From Thermococcus peptonophilus (GTDB lineage Archaea > Methanobacteriota_B > Thermococci > Thermococcales > Thermococcaceae), in the NCBI RefSeq assembly GCF_001592435.1, contig NZ_CP014750.1, positions 1,736,001-1,800,000 of the forward strand: a stretch of 64,000 nt of DNA. Reading direction: 5' to 3'. A program made the position numbers and the translations under genes. The notes beneath the pieces are model-generated. The model did not search any database. It was not told the origin of the DNA and worked only from the letters and a program-made list of their open reading frames with translations. The first letter of the stretch is position 1; each line of letters opens with the position of its first letter. Shown here in pieces: positions 4,123-41,415 of the stretch.

Positions 4123-4377
4123 CTAAAACCTCAGGTTTGAAACCGTGAAGGTGAGCTCAAGCCGGGACGAGCGGTGGTAGGAGCACCTCGCCAGCGTCTC
4201 CTCGGCCTCTTCTCTACTGGTCTTCTCAAGGACTATGCCGTAGTATATCTTCACGTAGTCACCTGGCTTCACGTCCCTGATGAAGTCCAGCTTGGCCTCT
4301 TTCAGCTTGCCCTCAACGTCAACTATGGCCTTTCCGTCCCTTACCTCAACCACTTTCCCCGCCAGCATCAGGGCCAT
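4123..4377 (-). CDS. HypC-like protein with Cys2 replaced by Ala
   Basis: From the ATG at 4377 the protein starts MALMLAGKVVEV, which lines up residue for residue with canonical MCLAIPGKVVEV. The rest (DVKPGDYVKIYYGIVLEKTSREEAEETLA) is plainly HypC/HupF-like. The iron-binding Cys2 is therefore Ala; the later ATG, giving MLAGKV, would also lack it. The last 20 residues (after ARCSYH) do not resemble HypC. It cannot do the normal Cys2 chemistry and may be a dedicated large-subunit chaperone or a regulator of HypC/HypD. It heads the hypC-hypD transcript. Its promoter TATA (4404-4413, read on this strand) is shared back to back with the DUF302 gene, and a SurR-type site covers its expected transcript start. 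Confidence 0.85.
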   Translation of the reverse strand: MALMLAGKVVEVRDGKAIVDVEGKLKEAKLDFIRDVKPGDYVKIYYGIVLEKTSREEAEETLARCSYHRSSRLELTFTVSNLRF

Positions 4378-28906: not shown

Positions 28907-29928
28907 ACTGGTTAAAACTTAAGAACCACCTCGACAAGTACCTCCCCGTTTACGTTACGCTTGCCATGATAGCGGGCTTTTACGTCGGAACGCACGCGGA
29001 CGTTGAGAAGTACAAAAGCACGCTCAAGACGCTCAACATGCTCGTCGTTATTAGCATGATCTACCCGATGATGATAAACCTGCGCCTTGGAGAACTGAAG
29101 AACAGCGCGAAGCTCGGAAAGCAACTGACCATAGCTCTCACGATGGGTCTCATTATCTCTCCGCTCATCATGTATGGTGCAATATGGCTCACGGAGCTGT
29201 TCCACCCCCTTAACCACCAGCTGGCCCTCGGTCTTCTCCTGGCTGTGGTAGTCCCCTGCTCCTCGATGAGCATAGCCTACACCGGCTTCACAAAGGGCAA
29301 CATAGAGCTCGCAACGATCGTCGTCGCCCTCAGCTTCACGCTGGCTATAGTCACTGTCCCAGGATGGCTCAAGATATTCGCCTCAAGCTACCACGTCAGC
29401 ATCTCAGTCTGGCTCCTAATCAAGACAATCATAATAGTCGTCATAACCCCTATGATACTCGGCGTCCTGACGAGGTGGTACCTCATCAAAAAGCTCGGAA
29501 CGGAGGGCTTCCTTAGGATAAAGCCTGCCTTTCCAGCGATCTCACTTCTCGGCATGTACACAATAGTCTTCCTCATCTTCATGGAGAAGGCCAAGCTCAT
29601 AGCCAGCAAACCTAGCATAGTTGGATTGGCCCTCATCCCTCTGGTAATCTACTACACCACGGCGCTCCTCTTCATGACTCTCGTTGACAGGGCCGCTGGG
29701 ATACCCTACAGGGACCACATGGCGATAACCTTCACATCAGTCGGAAAGAACGAGGGGACTGCAATGGCAATAGCACTCGCCGCTGGCACTGGGCTTATGG
29801 CAATAGCCCCAGCGGTCACTCCAATCGTCCAGATACCCTTCTTGGTTGGCTACGTCAAGATGTGGAGAAAGATAGCCAGCCTCTGGAACTGCAAAGTCCT
29901 TCATGAGGAAGCCGAGCCCGTCCCATGA
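28903..29928 (+). CDS. ACR3/BASS superfamily transporter, possible arsenite exporter
   Basis: A 341-residue membrane protein with ten helices. The segment [21 protein letters not shown] matches helix 4 of ACR3 arsenite exporters with its functional Cys, and [15 protein letters not shown] matches the second crossover motif. Bile acid/sodium symporters belong to the same superfamily and are the alternative. Translationally coupled to a UspA protein. Confidence 0.82.
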
Positions 29929-29986
29929 GTTTCTTTCCAAATCTTTTTACTCCCTCAGTGAAATGTTTGACAGGGGATGGATAAAA

Positions 29987-30918
29987 ATGGAAAATGCTAT
30001 CGAGGTTGTTGGCCTCACCAAATACTACGGTTCCTTTCTCGCCGTTGACGGTGTTAGCTTTTCTGTCAAGACTAACGAGATCTTCGGCTTCCTCGGGCCC
30101 AACGGGGCGGGAAAAACCACAACGATAAGGATGCTCACGGGGTTTTAAAGCCCAGCGGGGGTAGCGTTAGAGTTCTCGACTACAACATACTGAACGAGGG
30201 CGAGAAGATAAAGGCGAGGGAGAGAATAGGGATAGTGCCCGAGACTGCCAACCCGTACGTGGATTTGACGGCCATGCAAAACCTAAGGCTCATGGGCGAG
30301 CTCTACGGGATGTCCAAAAGAGAGATAGAGAAGCGCTCGGTTAAACTCCTTAAGCTCTTTGACCTCTACGAGAAAAGAAACATCAAGGTGCGGGGCTTTT
30401 CAAAGGGGATGAGACAGCGGCTCATATTAGCAATGGCAATGATAGCCGATCCCGAACTATACTTCCTCGATGAGCCGACGAGCGGGCTCGACGTTATCAG
30501 TGCTAGGATGATAAAGGAGATAATTAGGGCGGAAAAGAAGAACGGGAAGACTGTCTTCATCACGAGCCACAACATGGCAGATGTCAACGAGCTCTGTGAT
30601 AGGGTGGCGATAATAAGAAGGGGAAAGCTGATAGCGATAGACACGCCGGAGAGGCTCAAAACCCTGAGCAAAAAGCACGTCTCAGTCGAGATCAGCTTTG
30701 ACCCGATGCCCAAAGAGATCTCAGTTTCCAGTGCATCAAGGGTCGAGAGAAAGGGCGACAAGCTGAGAATACATACAGATGATCCGGACGCGACGATAAA
30801 GGAACTCGTCCGCTACGCTGAGGAAAAGGGACTGAGGATAGTGAGCCTGAAAACGTTCACCCCTTCCCTTGAGGACGTTTTCGTGGAGCTGGTAGGTGGT
30901 AAGGATGAACGCGATTGA
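29987..30918 (+). pseudogene. ABC exporter ATP-binding protein, frameshifted
   Basis: Together the two frames encode a normal 310-residue ABC-2 type ATPase. The first part (from ATG 29987, GGGGATGG upstream) carries Walker [10 protein letters not shown]. The second carries the signature FSKGMRQR, Walker B LYFLDEPTSGLD and the His switch. The frame is lost in GGGGTTTT at 30139-30146, where one base is missing and a TAA follows. Homopolymer position makes a sequence error as likely as real loss. The permease gene downstream is intact and overlaps its end. Confidence 0.85.
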
Positions 30919-31664: not shown

Positions 31665-32861
31665 TTATGCTGTTGCCTTCACCTTTTCCCACACCTCCCT
31701 TATGAAGGACTTCGTGTCACTCATTGACTCTATCTTAACCGGCCTCCTGCTCCTGACGAGGTACTCTACGGCTCCAGCGTACTGGAGGGCGTACTTCCCG
31801 ACGAGCTGTGCCCCGTTAAGCCTGCCGTTTTCTATGAAGAGCTTCGCTATGTGTGAGCCGTGCCATATCTCCTTTCTCGCCCCGGTGAAAGTCCCAATTG
31901 AGGCGAAGACCTTGTCGAAGATCGTTATGACGTTCATGTTTATCGATCCACGGTAGTGCTTCTCGATTCCCATCATGTTGTAGCCGGCAACCCTGCCCTG
32001 TTCCCTCGCGAGGGGCCAGATGGCGAAGATACCGTAGTTCCCTGTTATTAGATCCCTCGTCTCCGCGCAGTCCCCGGCGGCGTAAACATCTTTGACGTTG
32101 GTCTCCATCCTCTCGTTGGTCAGAATCCCGCCGTGCTCTCCGAGCTTGATCCTACCGTCGAGGAAGCTCATGTTGGGCCTGACGCCGAGGGCGGCAACTA
32201 TAAGGTCGGCGTAGACAACCCCACATGGCGCCTTTATGCCCTCCGCGGGGTCCCCTATGAGCTCTATGCTCTTCTCGAAGAGAACCTTGACTCCGTTGAG
32301 TATCATGACGTCCCTTATGATGTCGGAGATGTCCTCGTCGAAGAGCCTCCTTAGAATCCTTGAGCGGCAGATGATTATCGGATCAGCCCCGATTCTCTTC
32401 AGTGCTATTGCGGTTTCAACGGCTACTGGGCCGGCCCCGATTATGATGACCCTCCCCCTGACCTTCCTCAGCCTGTCTGCGTCTTCTATGCTCCTCACTC
32501 CGATAACGTTTCCCCTCCTAAACTGTGGGATTATTTTCGGCTCAGCTCCTGTTGAGATCAAAAGCCTGTCGTACTCTATCTCCTCACCGTTGTCGAGGAC
32601 GACCTTCTTCCTCTCTGTGTCAACCTTCACGACCTCCCTCCCCATGAGGTACTCTATCCCGCTGGAGCGGATGAAGTGCCAGTTCCAGATAAACAGCTCG
32701 TTCCTATTCACGGTCCCCTCGATGTAGTACGGCAAAGCCGCTGGCGAATAGGGGAGAACCTTCTCGCGGTTTATCACTATCACTTCATCCTCAGAGTTAG
32801 CGCTTATCGTCTCAGCCGCGGCGGTTCCAGCACCGCCGGCACCTATAATGACGTGCCTCAT
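31665..32861 (-). CDS. FAD/NAD(P) oxidoreductase of the tungsten enzyme operon (AorC-like)
   Basis: A 398-residue two-dinucleotide-domain flavoprotein: FAD motif HVIIGAGGAGTAAAE at the N-terminus, NAD motif VIIIGAGPVAVETA near residue 145, and VYAAGDCAE. The region where NADH oxidases and CoA-disulfide reductases have a redox Cys before LPYY reads SPAALPYYIEG, so the Cys is Ala. It is therefore more likely an electron-transfer flavoprotein between ferredoxin-type clusters and NAD(P). It overlaps the preceding oxidoreductase gene by four bases (ATGA), which ties it to that enzyme. Confidence 0.87.
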   Translation of the reverse strand: MRHVIIGAGGAGTAAAETISANSEDEVIVINREKVLPYSPAALPYYIEGTVNRNELFIWNWHFIRSSGIEYLMGREVVKVDTERKKVVLDNGEEIEYDRLLISTGAEPKIIPQFRRGNVIGVRSIEDADRLRKVRGRVIIIGAGPVAVETAIALKRIGADPIIICRSRILRRLFDEDISDIIRDVMILNGVKVLFEKSIELIGDPAEGIKAPCGVVYADLIVAALGVRPNMSFLDGRIKLGEHGGILTNERMETNVKDVYAAGDCAETRDLITGNYGIFAIWPLAREQGRVAGYNMMGIEKHYRGSINMNVITIFDKVFASIGTFTGARKEIWHGSHIAKLFIENGRLNGAQLVGKYALQYAGAVEYLVRSRRPVKIESMSDTKSFIREVWEKVKATA

Positions 32862-34603
32862 ACCAGATCACCCAATCCAAGTTTTTCAATCGTTTCAGGC
32901 TTGGGAACGCCATTCTCGTCCCAGCCCCTCAGGGAGTAATAAACCCGCTTCATCCCCTCCAGCTTCTCCCTGTCCAGCTTCGGCTCGTCCCTGAAGAGCC
33001 TTGGAGAGAGGTCGTCCTTTCTGTCTCCGTGTTTGAGGGTAAAGAGCCTTTCAAGGGTTCTCGTCCTCTCCGCCACAGTCATGAGCTCCTGCTCGGTTAT
33101 CTTCTCCCCGGTTACCGCCTCGTAGGCCTTTGCCCACAGCTTCAGCGGTGTGGTGAGGAGCGCTATCACGCAGACGCCGAGAGAATCGGCTATGATGTGG
33201 AGGTTCTCCCAGAGGACTGCAAAGCGGACTTTGCTCTCCGAGTAGCTCCATGGGTAGGCTGCCTCAACGTCTCCAACGAACCTGGTCGCCATCATCTCGG
33301 CCTGCTCCTTCTTTATATAATAGTAGAACTCTGGGAAGCCGTAGAGAGCGCGGTTGACGCTTCCTGAATCGGCCACAGCCGAGATGAGCGCGGAACCAAC
33401 GAAGGGCCTTACGTCGCTGCTCCAGGACTCCATTCCTCCTTTAACGTAAACGGCAGGAACGCCGAAGTGCTCGCTGGCCCTCTTGATGCCTTCAGCTAAG
33501 ATATCACCCTCTCCCTGTCTAGTTACTATTTTCTCTATCATCTCAAGGACTTCCTCAGTTCCTAGCTCCACGAGACCAAGGCGCGAGGCGTAGGCAACGA
33601 CCGCGACGGTGCTCATCATGTCAAGCCCCTCGCTCTGGCACTTCCTGTAAATCCGCCAGGCGAGCTCAGGATCCTCCGTTTTAAGCGTGAACGTTGCCGC
33701 TGGAAAAGTCCCCTGGCAGAGGTTTATCGGCAGGGTTTCCCCGTCGTACTTCACCAGTCCCCAGCACCGTAGCGGGCAGGAGAAGCAACTTGCCCTGCCA
33801 ACCGTGTGCTCCTCAAACCACTCCCTGGCCTTCATAGCGGCCTCTTCCGCCTTCTCCCATTCCCTCTCGTAGTCCCCGAAGTAGGGCATCCTCAGCTTCA
33901 GTATCGTCGGGATGAAGTTCACGTGCCAGTCCTTGAAGCGGAGGAACTCGCCACTGCTTATTATGCTCTCCTGAATCTCCTCAAAGACGGACATCAGCTC
34001 AACGGGGTTGTAGGGTTTAGTCCCCTCCGTTCCGTGGACGAGGATGGCCTTGAGCTTTTTGGCACCCATGACGGTGCCGAGACCTCCCCTCGAGGCGAGG
34101 TTCCTGTGGGAGAAAGAAATCCCTGCGAACTTCACCCCGTTTTCACCGGCCCTGCCTATGCATGCAACCCTAAGGTCAGGGTGGCCGTGAGTGAGGGCCT
34201 CTATCGTGTCAAAAACGTTGAGCCCCCAGAGCTCTTCGGCGCTCTCTATCGAGACCTCCCCGTTCTCTATCCTTAGGTAAACAGGCTTCTCGCTCTTTCC
34301 GGTTATCACGATTCCGTCGTAGCCCGCAAACTTCAGGGCAGAGGGGAACTCTCCACCTGTACTGCTTCCCCCTATCAGTCCCGTTACGGGAGAAACTGCC
34401 ACCACGTCCATCCTTGAGCCCGAGGGCACGAACGAGGTCAGCGGCCCGGTCATGAAGACCAGCGCATCGGGGTTTTCGTAAAGTATCCTTGTGGCAATCC
34501 CCCTGCCGCCGAGGAAGTCCTTGGCGTACTTCTCGGTCGGCTCCGTTCTGAGAGTCTTCGAGCCTAAATCAACGAAGAGGATTTTTCCAGTGTATCCGAA
34601 CAT
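32858..34603 (-). CDS. Aldehyde ferredoxin oxidoreductase family tungsten enzyme, copy 2
   Basis: A 581-residue AOR-family protein. It starts MFGYTGKILFVDL, has the cluster ligands CFSCPLRCWG (about residue 280) and the distal Cys in DSLGVC. Tungsto-bispterin contact regions (ASRGGLGTVMGAKKLKAI) are present. It follows its paralogue with a TGATGG overlap-type junction; ATG 34603 is preferred with GGTGA five bases before. Substrate is unknown; it resembles the WOR5/AOR branch more than FOR. Confidence 0.92.
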   Translation of the reverse strand: MFGYTGKILFVDLGSKTLRTEPTEKYAKDFLGGRGIATRILYENPDALVFMTGPLTSFVPSGSRMDVVAVSPVTGLIGGSSTGGEFPSALKFAGYDGIVITGKSEKPVYLRIENGEVSIESAEELWGLNVFDTIEALTHGHPDLRVACIGRAGENGVKFAGISFSHRNLASRGGLGTVMGAKKLKAILVHGTEGTKPYNPVELMSVFEEIQESIISSGEFLRFKDWHVNFIPTILKLRMPYFGDYEREWEKAEEAAMKAREWFEEHTVGRASCFSCPLRCWGLVKYDGETLPINLCQGTFPAATFTLKTEDPELAWRIYRKCQSEGLDMMSTVAVVAYASRLGLVELGTEEVLEMIEKIVTRQGEGDILAEGIKRASEHFGVPAVYVKGGMESWSSDVRPFVGSALISAVADSGSVNRALYGFPEFYYYIKKEQAEMMATRFVGDVEAAYPWSYSESKVRFAVLWENLHIIADSLGVCVIALLTTPLKLWAKAYEAVTGEKITEQELMTVAERTRTLERLFTLKHGDRKDDLSPRLFRDEPKLDREKLEGMKRVYYSLRGWDENGVPKPETIEKLGLGDLV

Positions 34604-34608
34604 AACCA

Positions 34609-36414
34609 TCACCACTCAAGTTCATACTTTCTCAGTGTCTCCTCAGTTGGAATACCTCTCTCGTCCCAGCCCCTCAGCTTATAGTATTCGTCCTTCATCC
34701 TCTCGAACTTCTCCCGGTCGAGTTTGACCCCCTTCCATGGGCCAGAGCGGATTACACTCTCAAAGAGCCTGGGTGAGAGGGTGTCCTCCTCCCTGTTAAC
34801 GCCCCTCCTGACGTTGAACATCCTCTCAAGAGTCCTTATCTTCTCGGCGTAGAAGTGGAGCTTCTCGGGGCTCATTTCTATCCCCGTTGCCGCTGTGAAG
34901 GCTTCGGCCCACAGTTCAAGGGGGATTGAGAGCATCGGCGTGTCGCAGACACCGAGGGAGTCAGCTATGATGTGCTCGTTCTCGAAGTAGGCGACCAGTT
35001 TTGCCTTCCCCTTATAGTTGGTTGGCTCTGCGGCGCTTTCATCACCAACTATCTCCCTCGCCACTTTCTTGGCCTTCTCGGGTTTTGTGTAGTAGGATGA
35101 AGCTGGGAAGCCGTGTATTGCCCTGCTTATACTCCCGCTCTCCGAGACCGCTCCAGCTAAGGCTACTCCGCGGAACGGCCTTACGTCGCTGCTCCAGGAC
35201 TCCATCCCACCTTTGACGTAAACGGCTGGAACGCCAAAGTGCTCGCTTGCCCTCTTCACACCTTCCGCGAGCACGTTCCCTGGACCCTCGCGGTTCACTA
35301 TCTCATCTATAAGCCAAAGTATATCTTCAGTTCCGAGCTTCACGAGACCAAGGCGGGAAGCGTAGGCTATCACAGCCGCTGTACCCATTATATCCATCCC
35401 TTCCCTCTGGAGCCTCAGGTAGACCTTCCAGGCGAGTTCTGGATCCTTTATCTTGAGGATGAAGAGTATAGCCGGAAAAGTGCCCTGGCAGGCCACCATT
35501 GGAGCCTCTTCGTCCTTGTACTCGACCCAGGCCCAGCACCTCAGCGGGCAGGAGAAGCAGCTGTTTGGCCTTAGCGTGGCCATCTCTTCGAAGAACCTCT
35601 TAGCGTTCCTGACGGCTTCTTCTGCTTCTTCCCAGTAGTCCTCCTCGTAGTCGCCGAAATAGGGCCTCCTCGCTTTCAGCAGGGAGAGCGCGATGTTTGC
35701 GTGCCAGTTCTCGTACTTCTTGAAGGCCGGGCTCTCCCTTATCCTCTTCTGGATTTCGAAGTTAACTTCCATGAGCCTCTTCGTGTCCCTCACTTTAACC
35801 CCCTTCGTCCCCGCGACTGCTATCGCCTTGAGGTTCTTGCTCCCCATTACTGCCCCAAGTCCGCCTCTAGCCGCTAAATTGCGCTTCGAGAAGCTTATCC
35901 CCGCTGTTTTAACGAGATTGGCGCCCGCCTTTCCGATGCACGCGACCTGGACGTCCTCCCTTCCGAGCTTCTTTACGCAGTCAACGGTATCGTATACGTC
36001 GTACTCCCAGCAGGCCTCTGCATCGTGGAAGGTAACTTCGTCGTCTATGATGCGTATGCACGTTGGCTCCTTGCTCCTCCCGGTTATAACGATCCCATCG
36101 TAGCCGGCAAACTTGAGGGCCGCGCCGAAATCTCCTCCTGCACTGCTCCCACCGAGCAGGTTAGTCACGGGCGAGAGCGATACGATGTCTATCCTAGAAC
36201 TTGACGGGGCAACACCAGTGAGCGGGCCGGTCATCATCACCAGTACGTTCTCGGGGTCAAGGGCGTCTGCATCCGGTGGAATTAGGTCGTAGGCAATCTT
36301 GGTGGCTATCCCCCTGCCCCCCAAGAAGTCAGCTGCATACTTGTCAGTGGGGATCGTCTTGATGAGGCGGGTACTCAAGTCCACAAAGAGGATTTTTCCA
36401 GCGTAGCCGAACAT
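34609..36414 (-). CDS. Aldehyde ferredoxin oxidoreductase family tungsten enzyme, copy 1
   Basis: A 601-residue paralogue of the gene downstream, starting MFGYAGKILFVDL, with the cluster ligands CFSCPLRCWAW, the distal DSLGVC and [17 protein letters not shown]. The two differ across most of the chain, so the duplication is old or came in by transfer, not a recent tandem copy. It starts one base after the polyferredoxin gene. Both catalytic copies keep all cluster Cys, so both should be active, possibly on different aldehydes or acids. Confidence 0.92.
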   Translation of the reverse strand: MFGYAGKILFVDLSTRLIKTIPTDKYAADFLGGRGIATKIAYDLIPPDADALDPENVLVMMTGPLTGVAPSSSRIDIVSLSPVTNLLGGSSAGGDFGAALKFAGYDGIVITGRSKEPTCIRIIDDEVTFHDAEACWEYDVYDTVDCVKKLGREDVQVACIGKAGANLVKTAGISFSKRNLAARGGLGAVMGSKNLKAIAVAGTKGVKVRDTKRLMEVNFEIQKRIRESPAFKKYENWHANIALSLLKARRPYFGDYEEDYWEEAEEAVRNAKRFFEEMATLRPNSCFSCPLRCWAWVEYKDEEAPMVACQGTFPAILFILKIKDPELAWKVYLRLQREGMDIMGTAAVIAYASRLGLVKLGTEDILWLIDEIVNREGPGNVLAEGVKRASEHFGVPAVYVKGGMESWSSDVRPFRGVALAGAVSESGSISRAIHGFPASSYYTKPEKAKKVAREIVGDESAAEPTNYKGKAKLVAYFENEHIIADSLGVCDTPMLSIPLELWAEAFTAATGIEMSPEKLHFYAEKIRTLERMFNVRRGVNREEDTLSPRLFESVIRSGPWKGVKLDREKFERMKDEYYKLRGWDERGIPTEETLRKYELEW

Positions 36415-36415
36415 T

Positions 36416-36868
36416 TCAATCCGCCTCCCCGTAGAGGATTCTAACCCCCCTCTTCCTCGCCTCGGGGACGGCGTCGTCCGGAACGAGCTCTATGACGTTC
36501 ATTGGACAGTATTTGACGCACTGGGGGTCTCCGCCGCAGAGGTCGCAGCGTATCATCTGGTGGTTGATGTAGTCGTAGAGAACTCCTCCTATGGGACATA
36601 CGAGGGTGCACATCTTGCAGCGGATGCACTTCTCGTCGTCAACTATCCTGATGCCCCCCTGCATGTGGATTGCTTCCATCGGGCAGACTAGTTCGCAGGG
36701 AGCGTCCTCGCACTGGAGGCACATTATCGGAAACTTCTCTCCCTTGTAGCCGAGCACGTGAATCCTCGAGAGATCGGGGTTTACAACTCCCTCGTGGCTG
36801 AGAGAACAGACCATCTCGCAGGTGCGGCACCCTATGCACTTGTCCTCATGAACTATCAGGTATGGCAA
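36416..36868 (-). CDS. Four-cluster ferredoxin subunit of the tungsten enzyme (WorS/AorA-like)
   Basis: A 150-residue protein with four CxxC-type groups (CIGCRTCEMVC, CLQCEDAPCELVC, CIRCKMCTLVC, CDLCGGDPQCVKYC), as in the small subunit of WOR5 and the AorA subunit of bacterial AOR complexes. The start is TTG at 36868, preceded by GGTGAT; no in-frame ATG is available. It is the first gene of the operon, with TATA CTTTTATATG (36901-36910) upstream. Confidence 0.92.
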   Translation of the reverse strand: MPYLIVHEDKCIGCRTCEMVCSLSHEGVVNPDLSRIHVLGYKGEKFPIMCLQCEDAPCELVCPMEAIHMQGGIRIVDDEKCIRCKMCTLVCPIGGVLYDYINHQMIRCDLCGGDPQCVKYCPMNVIELVPDDAVPEARKRGVRILYGEAD

Positions 36869-36924
36869 CTCTCATCACCGATATTATTTTAAAAAAATTT
36901 CATATAAAAGACTTTTCAAACATA

Positions 36925-36941
36925 AACCTGAGGTTGTGGAC
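36925..36941. promoter_or_regulatory. One-mismatch SurR-type site before the tungsten enzyme operon
   Basis: AAC-CTGAG-GTT-GTG-GAC matches eight of nine fixed positions of AACn5GTTn3AAC. It sits about 15 bases upstream of the operon's TATA, the same position as the exact sites before hypA and the Ni/Co transporter. Confidence 0.4.
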
Positions 36942-36954
36942 AAAAGTGGGAAGT

Positions 36955-38069
36955 CTAAAACTCGAACCGCTCTCTGAGGGGCCTTATTAGCGCCTCAGCC
37001 ATGAAGAGAGCGCTCACAACGAGAACTGCGGCAATTATAAAAGTCCTCCTAACGCCAACGAGTTCTATGGAAAGGCTCCCAAGGAGGGGGGCATAGAGCC
37101 CTCTTATCCCGCAGGTCGTCAGGTGGAGCGCCGAGAGATCCTCTGTCCTGTAGTCAGGGATTCCCATCGAGAAGGCCTGCCAGCCTATTGAGATGGCTGA
37201 ACCTCCAATGGCACAGAGGGCACTCGCGAGGTAAACGTACCAGGCTGAAGTGCTCGCGAAGTAGACCATTGCCATGGCACCAATGGCAATGAAGCCAAGC
37301 TGAAAGACCCTTATGACGTGGGAAGGCCGAGTGATAACCCTTCCCCACAGCTCGGAGAAGAGTACGTACGTAAGGCTGTTTATCGCCATGGCGATTCCGA
37401 TTACAGTGTTGGAGAGGTTAAGGACTCTAACCTCGAGGATTGGAATCGCAGGAATCATCATCAGCATTCCGGTTCCTGCTATCATAAACATCGCTACCAT
37501 GCCCAGAATCAGCTTATCCCTGTAGGGTAGCTCGCTCTCCTCCTCTACCTCTCCCCTAAGGTCCGGAAAGGGGAGCCTTGAGAGTGCCGCAATAAGAAGC
37601 AGGCCTGCAGCTAAGATGAAGGCGAGCCTGTGGCTCTCCACGTCCATTATGTAGCCCGCGACTCCAACGGCTATGGTATAGACTATTGTATAGGTTGCCT
37701 CGGCGTGACCCAGAACCCTGATGTCCATATAGACTCGCTCGACTATTAGAGGGTAGAGAACTGGAAGACAAAGAGAAAGAATGTTAAAGCGCTCTGGGAG
37801 AACGCGGACAGCAGAAGGAAGATGGAAGCCAAGAGCAGGGAAGTTACTATGAGCCTTTTTGCACCGGTTTTTCGCGAGGCTCTGGCCCATAGGGGGGAGA
37901 AGAGATTCGAGACGTAGGCGCTGCTCCCGAGGAGGCCCACCATGAACGGAGAGGCACCCATTCTTGTGATTATCACCTCGAAGAAGGCTTCGGCAAGTCC
38001 TTCGGCACCTCCGAGAGATCCCTGGCTGAGGAACTCGAACTTAAGGAGCTTCCTTGCCTCGTCGTTCAT
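36955..38069 (-). pseudogene. Major facilitator superfamily transporter, frameshifted
   Basis: The two frames join into a 371-residue MFS protein with about 11-12 helices. The first frame (from 38069) ends soon after FFLFVFQ; homology continues as VLYPLIVERVYMDIRVLG in another frame. One base is missing near 37755-37770. The N-terminal part (MVGLLGSSAYVSNLFSPLWA) and the rest are otherwise intact, so this is a very recent loss or a sequence error. Its start overlaps the stop of the small gene upstream (ATGA). Substrate unknown. Confidence 0.82.
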
Positions 38070-38341
38070 AGACCTTCCCTCAGCAGTAAACTGCCGGCGA
38101 ACCTTCCCCTCCAGCTAAGCTCTACTTTAGTCCCAAAGGGGCCCCTCCAGACGCTCTCGACCTCAAGCTCATCAACCGGTGCCATGAACTTGAGCTTTCC
38201 GACCTTCTTTCCGTCCACGAAGACAACGACTTTTCCTCCCCTCTCGACGAGCTCTGCCCTGCTTAGAAGCTCTTTAACTTTCTCCCGCACTTCCGGGGTG
38301 ACCTCCTCCCTCGCTTTTTTACCGCAGCCCATCCTGAGCAT
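38066..38341 (-). CDS. Small conserved hypothetical protein
   Basis: A 91-residue basic/acidic protein starting MLRMGCGKKAREEV, with a beta-rich second half (GGKVVVFVDGKKVGKLKF, VELSWRGRFAGSLL). No family recognised. The start could also be GTG 38356. It is coupled to the transporter downstream. The gap 38342-38492 beyond it is A/T-rich and holds no gene I can see. Confidence 0.65.
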   Translation of the reverse strand: MLRMGCGKKAREEVTPEVREKVKELLSRAELVERGGKVVVFVDGKKVGKLKFMAPVDELEVESVWRGPFGTKVELSWRGRFAGSLLLREGL

Positions 38342-38492
38342 TTTGGTCACTGACACTAATTATTCACTGCTCATAATTAACTTTTTCCAATTAACAACTC
38401 TTAGACGGCAATAACTGATACCAAAAAGTGTAGAATGTTGTGATGTAACTTACTTATTTCCTCTGCTGGATTCTCAAATCTTCTAACCAACT

Positions 38493-38908: not shown

Positions 38909-39139
38909 TCATCCCCCGCTGAGAACCGGCATGAGCTTTACCTCGTCGGTATCTTCAACCTCAGCGTCCCCCCTCGCCGGCTTTCCGTTTATCATTATGA
39001 TTTTGTCTTTGAACTCGTCGTACCTCGGAATAAGCTCCCTGAGAAGCTCATCCACCTTTTTCTTTCCATCAAGCTTTACCTCAAGCTCCCTCGCGCCGGC
39101 AAGGTGAGCAAAGGCTCCCATCAGCTTTATACGCACCAT
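38909..39139 (-). CDS. MoaD/ThiS-family sulfur carrier
   Basis: A 76-residue ubiquitin-like protein ending in the Gly-Gly needed for thiocarboxylate formation (KLMPVLSGG). Such carriers supply the dithiolene sulfur of molybdopterin/tungstopterin. ATG 39139 has GGTGA five bases before. It follows the tungsten enzyme FOR by about 70 bases, which supports a role in its cofactor. Confidence 0.88.
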   Translation of the reverse strand: MVRIKLMGAFAHLAGARELEVKLDGKKKVDELLRELIPRYDEFKDKIIMINGKPARGDAEVEDTDEVKLMPVLSGG

Positions 39140-39208
39140 TTCCATCACCACCAAGAGTTAGGCCCAGAACGATAAAAATTTGTCGAAGGTAAAGGAAAGA
39201 AAAGGAGA

Positions 39209-41068
39209 TCACTCGAGCTTGGTAACCTTCTCCAGCTCCGGAATGACCTCTTCGAGGCCGAGCTTTTGGAGGGTCTCCTTCTTCGGGATTCCGCGCTCGT
39301 CCCAGCCCCTGAGCCTGTAGTACTCGCTGAGAAGTTCATCGTACTTCTTCTCGTCGAGGTGCTGGCCCTTGTACGGGCCGCTCTTGAGGCCCTCGATGAA
39401 CCATCTTCTCGGCGGGTAGTCCATCTTCCTGTCCCAGTTGCCGTTGAACTCCCTGACCCAGTAGGCCCTTATGAGTGCGTAGAGCCTGTCGGCAGCGGCG
39501 TAGAGATCGTCCCAGGTGTACTTGACGCCGGTGATGGCCTCGAGGAGCTTCGGATAATAGTTGATGTCGAGACCGACCTCGACCCACGGAAGTCTGCACG
39601 CGGTGAGCATCTCAAAGAGGCCACCCCTGAGGCGCTGGAGCTCTATCACCTTAGCAGCCTTCTCCGGAGTGTAAGTTATCTTATACTCGACCTTCTTGGC
39701 CTTCTCGCCCTCTATTGGAGCGGTTCCGATCTCCCAGGCTATGACCCAGGCCTCCTTGTGGTGGGCACCTATTGAGCTGGTTCCATAAGCGAGTGCCATC
39801 GCCGGGTAGATGAAGCAGTTGTAACCGCTTACCTCAAGGCCCTTCACGTGCATGGCGAAGTCGTGGGTGCCGAGCTTCTCGGCCATGGCCTTAACGCCCT
39901 CTGCCGCGAGGTTTCCAAGCTCTCCCCTGCGGTAAGCGATGTCGAGGGCGAGCTGCTTGGCACCCTTGAAGTCGCCGAAGGTCGGACCGTCCTTGAGGAT
40001 GCCCTTCTCAACGGCCTCCATTACATGGGCTATTGAGCCGCCGAGGCTGATGGTGTCCATACCCATGTCGTCCGCTATCCTGTTGAGGACCGAGACCTCA
40101 TTGAGCTTTCCGAGCCCCAGGTTAGAACCGAGCAGTGCAACGTTCTCGTAGTCGAGCTCGCTCTCCTGACCTTCAGCGTCGAGCACGACGTTTCCACAGG
40201 GCATGTTACAGTAGGGGCAGCCACGCTGCTTGACCTTCATTCCCTCCATTGTGTAGCCGTCTATTGAGCGGGCGAACTCAAAGCTTCCATCGCTGAAGTT
40301 CCTGGTTGGAAGGGCTGAGTTCTCGTTCGTCCACTCGACGGCCGCCATCGTACCCTGTCTCTTCCAGAAGGGATAGCCCGGCGAGTTCAGGATTGCGTTG
40401 TATGCTTCCTGACTCAGCTCCCTGAGCTTCTCCTTGTCAGCGACGGGTATCTCTTTGGTTCCCTTTATGACGACGGCCTTGAGGTTCTTGCTTCCCATGA
40501 CTGCACCCATACCGGGCCTTCCGGCGGCCCTGCCCTCCTGAGAGATCACAACGGCGTACTTGACGAGGTTTTCTCCGGCAGGGCCGATGCTGAGGACACC
40601 GACGTTCTTGCCGTGTATCTTCTTAAGCTCCCTCTCGGTCTCGAAGGTCCCCTTGCCCCAGAGGCCCTCAGCGCTCAGGATGCTCACGTTGTCGTCCTCG
40701 ATGTAGATGTAGACCGGCTTCTTGGCCTTGCCCTCGACGACTAGGGCATCATATCCGGCTTTCCTGAGGTGAACGGTCGCCATGGTTCCAAGGTTTCCGT
40801 CACCGTAGCCACCGGTGAGCGGGCTCTTGGCAGCGACAACCATCTTACCTCCGCTCGGTGTTGGGAGACCGTTGAACGGGCCAGATGCAAAAACGAGCTT
40901 GTTCTCGGGCCCAAGTGGATCAACGTTCTTGGCCTCGTTCCAGAGAATCCATGCGGCCAGACCCCTGCCGCCAATGAACTTCTTCGCGACTTCCTTTGGG
41001 TACTCCTGCACTTGGACCTTGTTGTTGGTAAGATCAACCCTGAGGATTCTTCCCCACCATCCTTTCAT
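39209..41068 (-). CDS. for: Tungsten formaldehyde:ferredoxin oxidoreductase
   Basis: FOR oxidises formaldehyde and short aldehydes to acids and reduces ferredoxin. The 619-residue length equals that of the characterised Pyrococcus enzyme, and the start [18 protein letters not shown] is the same. Cluster Cys are in CPYCNMPC and near [22 protein letters not shown] and pterin-binding GRGLAAWIL are also present. ATG 41068 has GGTGGTT upstream, and a TATA-like CTTTTATAGG lies about 40 bases before it. Confidence 0.97.
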
Positions 41069-41415
41069 AGAAACCACCACATTAGATCAAGACGCCATCC
41101 TATAAAAGCTTTGAGTTTCCTAAAGGCCTTAACAGCCCCGTTGCCCGAAAATGGGTGGGTTTAACACGGAGGCCTTAATTATACCCCCGAATATGCTCGG
41201 TTTTTTTCGAAAATTTTGAGTGCTTTTTGGGCTTTTGCTGCATAATTTATGGCACTGAAGTACGTCCAATGGCCTATGTTTAGAAATGTTCGAGAATTCT
41301 CAACTGAATACGCCTCTCATGCTCGTTTGTATAAATCTAATGTGCTAGGGGAGGCAAGAATGCACTCCTGGGACCAAGTAGCTGGAAGAAGTAAATAAGG
41401 GAAAACAGCAGATGT
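41069..41415. other. Non-coding gap between for and the TPR protein gene
   Basis: This 347-base stretch has the for promoter at its left end. The rest is A/T-rich. One short frame (ATG 41276 to TAA 41398, plus strand) would give 40 residues starting MFRNVREFSTEY, with a TATA-like CATAATTTAT about 30 bases upstream but no ribosome binding site. I cannot tell whether it is a gene, a remnant or chance. Confidence 0.4.

Follow-up and report, generated by a model that had tools for sequence, protein, structure and literature searches.

The tungsten oxidoreductases (WORs) that oxidize aldehydes share a conserved second shell consisting of Thr243, Glu313, Tyr427, and His448 (2025 review, PMC12096430; PMC13328260). 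According to the same review, only BamB and YdhV combine a protein cysteine ligand to tungsten with loss of this second shell, and neither is known to act on aldehydes (PMC12096430). A clade 41 WOR exhibited no activity on 46 aldehydes, and GmBCR is presented as the sole WOR for which a non-aldehyde reaction is known (PMC13328260). YdhV itself has no known reaction. In terms of gene organization, the AorABC system of Aromatoleum aromaticum (AaAOR, a class III WOR; PDB 8c0z) is encoded in the order S-L-N, namely, a four-cluster small subunit (AorA), a WOR large subunit, and a CoADR-like FAD subunit without the redox cysteine (AorC), whose Arg41 and Met42 are in contact with both FAD and the Fe-S relay (PMC10413684). 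Within the Thermococcales, WOR5/ASOR of Pyrococcus furiosus (class II WOR; PDB 6x1o, 6x6u) unites a four-cluster small subunit with a WOR large subunit.

The locus considered here lies on the minus strand of the window, that is, the whole 64,000-nucleotide stretch of Thermococcus peptonophilus DNA that was analyzed, and comprises four genes, listed in the order of their transcription.

36416..36868 (minus strand): Fd, AorA/WorS-like ferredoxin; 150 aa from a TTG start; four 4Fe-4S motifs holding 16 Cys; C-terminal tail PEARKRGVRILYGEAD conserved
34609..36414 (minus strand): L1, AOR/WOR large subunit; 601 aa
32858..34615 (minus strand): L2, second AOR/WOR large subunit; 585 aa, translation probably beginning at the Met at 34603
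31665..32861 (minus strand): N, AorC/WorN-like FAD/NAD(P) flavoprotein; 398 aa, without redox Cys

A check of the open reading frames returned the four genes at these coordinates as a tight operon, in which Fd and L1 are separated by 1 nt, L1 and L2 overlap by 7 nt, and L2 and N by 4 nt. Pfam assigns AFOR_N plus AFOR_C to both L1 and L2, Pyr_redox_2 to N, and several Fer4 models to Fd. Coordinates, domains, and packing thus bear out the sequence-only reading of a polyferredoxin, two tandem tungsten oxidoreductases, and an FAD oxidoreductase in one operon; its description of the two large subunits as divergent is equally apt, as these paralogues are 56-58% identical. WorL, WorS, and WorN, the gene set of a class III WOR, occur together in one operon with a second WorL in addition. 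The WOR large-subunit family has seven members in the T. peptonophilus genome (1.90 Mb, two contigs); five are known in Pyrococcus furiosus. A literature search, with subscription journals and supplements outside its reach, found no paper describing the Fd-L1-L2-N operon.

Among 94 Thermococcaceae genomes, L2 is present in eight and L1 in seven, including one locus cut by a contig end (G016). The complete order Fd-L1-L2-N is found in five Thermococcaceae species, represented by the T. peptonophilus window, G106, G060, G027, and G030, the last with N cut by a contig end. Variants include Fd-L1-L2 up to a contig end with N on another contig (G017), Fd-L2-N without L1 (G002), and L2 alone, accompanied by a different, ~40% identical ferredoxin and no N (G009). 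The whole operon recurs in a DHVE2-class genome of another phylum (G350), at identities of 79% for Fd, 71% for L1, 68% for L2, and 73% for N, and a second DHVE2 contig (L032) carries Fd-L1-L2 as far as its end. Across a wide scan covering 80 WOR loci, together with the loci retrieved from relatives, S-L-L-N is confined to the L1/L2 clade, and S-L-N occurs at two loci outside it. All four genes are under strong purifying selection (dN/dS 0.015-0.094), which rules out decaying genes; this selection, and the recurrence of the order in several other genomes, place the operon beyond chance. In a phylogenetic tree, L1 and L2 form two supported groups and the DHVE2 L1 falls inside the L1 group, so that the duplication predates the spread between phyla. 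Since L2 is present in every locus with a complete region, and L1 is absent from some, L2 looks like the core catalyst. Further afield, shortened close homologues of N (83-86%) occur in G020, a genome without L1/L2 (G020:C32:65814-66818), and as a second copy in G002 (G002:C57:36145-37221), as either relics or genes in independent use. At a Desulfonema locus (L037), multiple WOR large-subunit genes stand side by side with a single small-subunit gene among them (L-S-L-L-L).

The large subunits are bona fide members of the AOR/WOR family in domain content, cluster ligands (CxxCxxxC...C), and metallopterin motifs. AF2 models L1 with high confidence (mean pLDDT 93.1) in the AOR/WOR fold; the significant structure matches of the model are all AOR/WOR proteins, namely, AmWOR1, Clostridium autoethanogenum AOR, PfAOR, BamB, FOR, AaAOR, and WOR5. 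The Fe-S ligands of L1 are intact (C286, C289, C293, and C490), and its metallopterin motifs G-[LM]-D and DSLGVC are conserved; L2 is without a 10-residue loop present in L1. The second shell is another matter. At the positions of Thr243, Glu313, Tyr427, and His448, L1 has A/A/S/S and L2 has V/L/S/N, and these replacements are identical in all orthologues save for one further substitution in the L2 of G030. Neither subunit nor any orthologue is thus an AOR sensu stricto, in which all four residues are present; most sampled homologues retain them.

Downstream of the Fe-S motif, L1, L2, and all orthologues feature the sequence CQGTF, with an invariant cysteine whose codons in the window are as follows.

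35488..35490 (minus strand): L1 Cys309 codon (CQGTF motif), predicted W ligand, pairing with BamB Cys322
33716..33718 (minus strand): L2 Cys300 codon, equivalent of L1 Cys309

The tungsten ligand of BamB, Cys322, follows the last Cys of CxxCxxxC by 16 residues; the cysteines of L1 and L2 follow it by exactly 16 as well, and by 15 in one DHVE2 L2. In hhalign comparisons of the L1/L2 family profile with four BamB sequences, Cys309 pairs with Cys322 ungapped in all four settings. Plain MAFFT instead places the L1/L2 cysteine in a different column, up to 8 columns from the BamB/YdhV cysteine, owing to gap placement. No Cys occurs between +14 and +18 in any of the ~78 homologues that carry a Glu313-type motif, a number reached from 81 by leaving out the rows of YdhV and two BamB proteins, which a loose pattern had caught. 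An AF2 model of an ordinary WOR (L036) served as a control and has the same hairpin-then-helix topology, with its Glu located about three residues beyond the L1 Cys. Together, these features point to C309 of L1 and C300 of L2 as probable metal ligands; judged from sequence, L1 and L2 belong with BamB and YdhV in active-site type and not with the aldehyde enzymes. As a cysteine ligand with a lost second shell is the mark of BamB and YdhV, the L1/L2 clade appears to be a further cysteine-type WOR group. Two bacterial large subunits, from Desulfuromonadales and Desulfococcus (L034:99-2210 and L074:7408-9255), likewise have Cys at +16 and no Glu313, and possibly represent further groups of this type; L034 starts with a twin-arginine-like signal.

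These substitutions bear directly on what the enzyme does. The sequence-only reading had proposed an aldehyde or carboxylic acid enzyme, a proposal at odds with the replacement of every AOR second-shell residue in both large subunits and with the BamB-type cysteine. With the aldehyde acid-base residues gone and a cysteine ligand predicted, the reaction is probably not aldehyde oxidation. An NAD(P)-linked aldehyde/carboxylic-acid oxidoreductase of class III, similar to AaAOR but with a drifted site and other acid-base residues, would account for the AorABC gene order, the AorABC relatives nearest to Fd and N, and the best structural match of L1, which is an aldehyde enzyme; an invariant W237-H238 pair adjoining the Thr243 position could then serve in acid-base catalysis. 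Given how uniformly the four residues are replaced across the orthologues while most homologues keep them, and given the cysteine, we regard this alternative as unlikely.

A different set of residues speaks to a second alternative, in which the operon encodes a BamB-like reductase of aromatic or unsaturated acyl-CoA driven by ferredoxin or NADPH. The cysteine occupies the Cys322-type ligand position, and an OYE/BaiCD-type ene-reductase gene lies beside the operon, before x96 and the MFS gene (see below), in G060, G027, and G009. However, Glu251, His255, Glu257, and His260 of BamB, which make up its Zn/proton relay, have no counterpart in L1/L2, although this segment is aligned with less certainty than the cysteine; judged by these relay residues, the operon does not encode a benzoyl-CoA reductase. 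The bifurcating Bam subunits are also absent from the operon, and a quick tree does not join L1/L2 to BamB, with long branches that make the placement unsure. Nor does the T. peptonophilus genome contain any OYE-family gene, which rules out OYE as a subunit of the complex. An acyl-CoA reductase of this kind is accordingly very unlikely.

The two remaining subunits inform the electron path. Similarity to AorABC, as proposed from sequence, holds for the S-L-L-N gene order and for N, whose best solved relative is AorC (8c0z_E, E 6.6e-43); for Fd, AorA and the S subunit of AmWOR1, a bifurcating enzyme, are the best solved relatives. Fd has a conserved C-terminal tail, compared by length with the C-terminal helix that drives filament formation in AorA and similar to it in this respect. 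Stacking of Fd into wires is possible. Fd begins directly with the ferredoxin fold and has no leader, and is thus not a Tat/membrane small subunit of the YdhV type. The redox Cys of CoA-disulfide reductases is missing from N (PYSPA, within PYSPAALPY), as had been remarked before; the loss does not set N apart, as AorC has lost it too (PYSRM) and its absence is what an AorC-type subunit would be expected to display. At the positions of AorC Arg41 and Met42, N has Pro and Ala, and its electron path may therefore differ from that of AorC. Strand 2 of the nucleotide fold of N ends in CRSR, where NAD-specific proteins usually have an acidic residue, which suggests NADP(H) as the cofactor; with a nucleotide fold present, NAD(P) linkage of the complex is plausible.

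Taken together, we favor, with moderate confidence, an NAD(P)H-linked, Cys-ligated tungsten (or molybdenum) enzyme of AorABC-like build that catalyzes a non-aldehyde, probably reductive reaction. In such a soluble complex, N would exchange hydride with NAD(P)H and Fd would pass electrons across its four [4Fe-4S] clusters to L1 and L2, interchangeable or paired catalysts that would each hold a bis-metallopterin tungsten (or molybdenum) near one [4Fe-4S] cluster, the metal probably bound by C309 or C300 as in BamB and YdhV. The reaction would be of low potential, probably in the reductive direction, on a small molecule. Several observations run counter to this reading: the plain MAFFT column of the cysteine, the quick tree, the absent BamB relay residues, and the Pro/Ala of N, all described above; the nearest structure by overall score is an aldehyde enzyme, AmWOR1; and G009 keeps L2 without N. 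A bolder reading would have L1/L2 constitute a further archaeal Cys-ligated tungsten group with a new reaction, in which L1 and L2 on one ferredoxin wire would couple two half-reactions, for example with one tungsten site oxidizing and the other reducing, and NAD(P)H balancing the two; we hold this to be decidedly doubtful.

The promoter region offers a hint of when the operon may be expressed. Two elements precede Fd.

36925..36941 (minus strand): SurR-like box GTCCACAACCTCAGGTT, one mismatch to GTTn3AACn5GTT, position conserved in Thermococcaceae loci
36901..36910 (minus strand): predicted TATA element CTTTTATATG of the Fd-L1-L2-N unit, from the conserved upstream alignment

Eight of nine Thermococcaceae loci have a SurR-like box with at most one mismatch directly upstream of the TATA element; in G009 the box precedes the different ferredoxin, and G030 has a weaker form. 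The upstream alignment reveals no such box in DHVE2. SurR acts, when sulfur is absent, as an activator of hydrogen genes and a repressor of sulfur genes (PMC12162507), and the putative box therefore suggests sulfur- or redox-dependent expression of the operon. The 64-kb window as a whole contains 22 SurR-like boxes with at most one mismatch, versus 9.4 expected and 17 in the largest shuffle; exact boxes are located at 4127, 4379, 8271, 18999, 20780, 50503, and 62764.

The neighboring genes are varied, and none of them fixes the substrate. Upstream of Fd are an MFS transporter gene (36955-38069, minus strand), broken in the window by a 28-nt deletion with frameshift and intact in orthologues of 378-381 aa, and x96 (38066-38356, minus strand), which encodes 96 aa of no Pfam family and in related loci always lies just before the MFS gene; in both G106 and G060, x96-like small genes also adjoin a further ACR3-like transporter. 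Farther upstream on the same strand are a FOR-like gene (39209-41080, minus strand) with the DYEN motif of FOR, then a ThiS-like, WorX-type gene (38909-39154, minus strand) and OsmC. An ABC transporter ATPase gene (29903-30918, plus strand) exhibits a 1-nt frameshift in a G run relative to its relatives, either a sequencing error or real. Genes for an ACR3-like transporter, of the arsenite-efflux family, and for Usp, OsmC, and ABC-2 proteins recur near the operon, the first and Usp and OsmC in DHVE2 as well. Such neighbors, together with the SurR-like box, could imply that the substrate is a sulfur or metalloid compound encountered under redox stress, whose product the neighboring transporters export. 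The evidence for this scenario is one of gene neighborhood, and the ACR3-like gene scores 113 bits against a family cut-off of 283, lies on the opposite strand in T. peptonophilus, and is not seen near the G106 copy of the operon; we deem the scenario highly improbable.

The preferred reading, a Cys-ligated enzyme with a non-aldehyde reaction, carries practical implications. A compact, probably thermostable four-gene WOR would provide a tractable model of the cysteine active-site type, and as the Thermococcales are an order with genetic tools, the role of Cys-ligated WORs would become open to direct tests. With its two large subunits for a single ferredoxin, the operon would also allow a test of how WOR wires share catalysts.

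How, then, does this operon relate to the described systems? It resembles AaAOR in gene order and subunit types, and AaAOR is among the best solved relatives of Fd and N; in contrast to AaAOR, it has two large subunits in which the second shell is lost and a cysteine gained, and N does not keep Arg41/Met42. Fd is alignable with the WOR5 small subunit, whereas WOR5 has one large subunit and no flavoprotein, and L1 and L2 match it worst among solved WORs. AmWOR1 of Acetomicrobium (bifurcating class IV WOR; PDB 9mqx) is the best solved match of Fd, L1, and L2 by sequence and of L1 by fold, yet the class IV WorABC subunits are absent here and L1/L2 have lost the aldehyde residues. YdhV of E. coli (class V WOR, clade 41) resembles L1/L2 in having a Cys after the Fe-S motif and no Glu313; its Cys, however, is at +22 rather than +16, its His column is still H, and its operon includes a cytochrome and other subunits, unlike Fd-L1-L2-N. 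BamB, of class II benzoyl-CoA reductase (PDB 4z3w), differs in its relay residues and its BamC-I type partners, and shares with L1 and L2 both the missing AOR second shell and the position and spacing of the tungsten-ligand cysteine.
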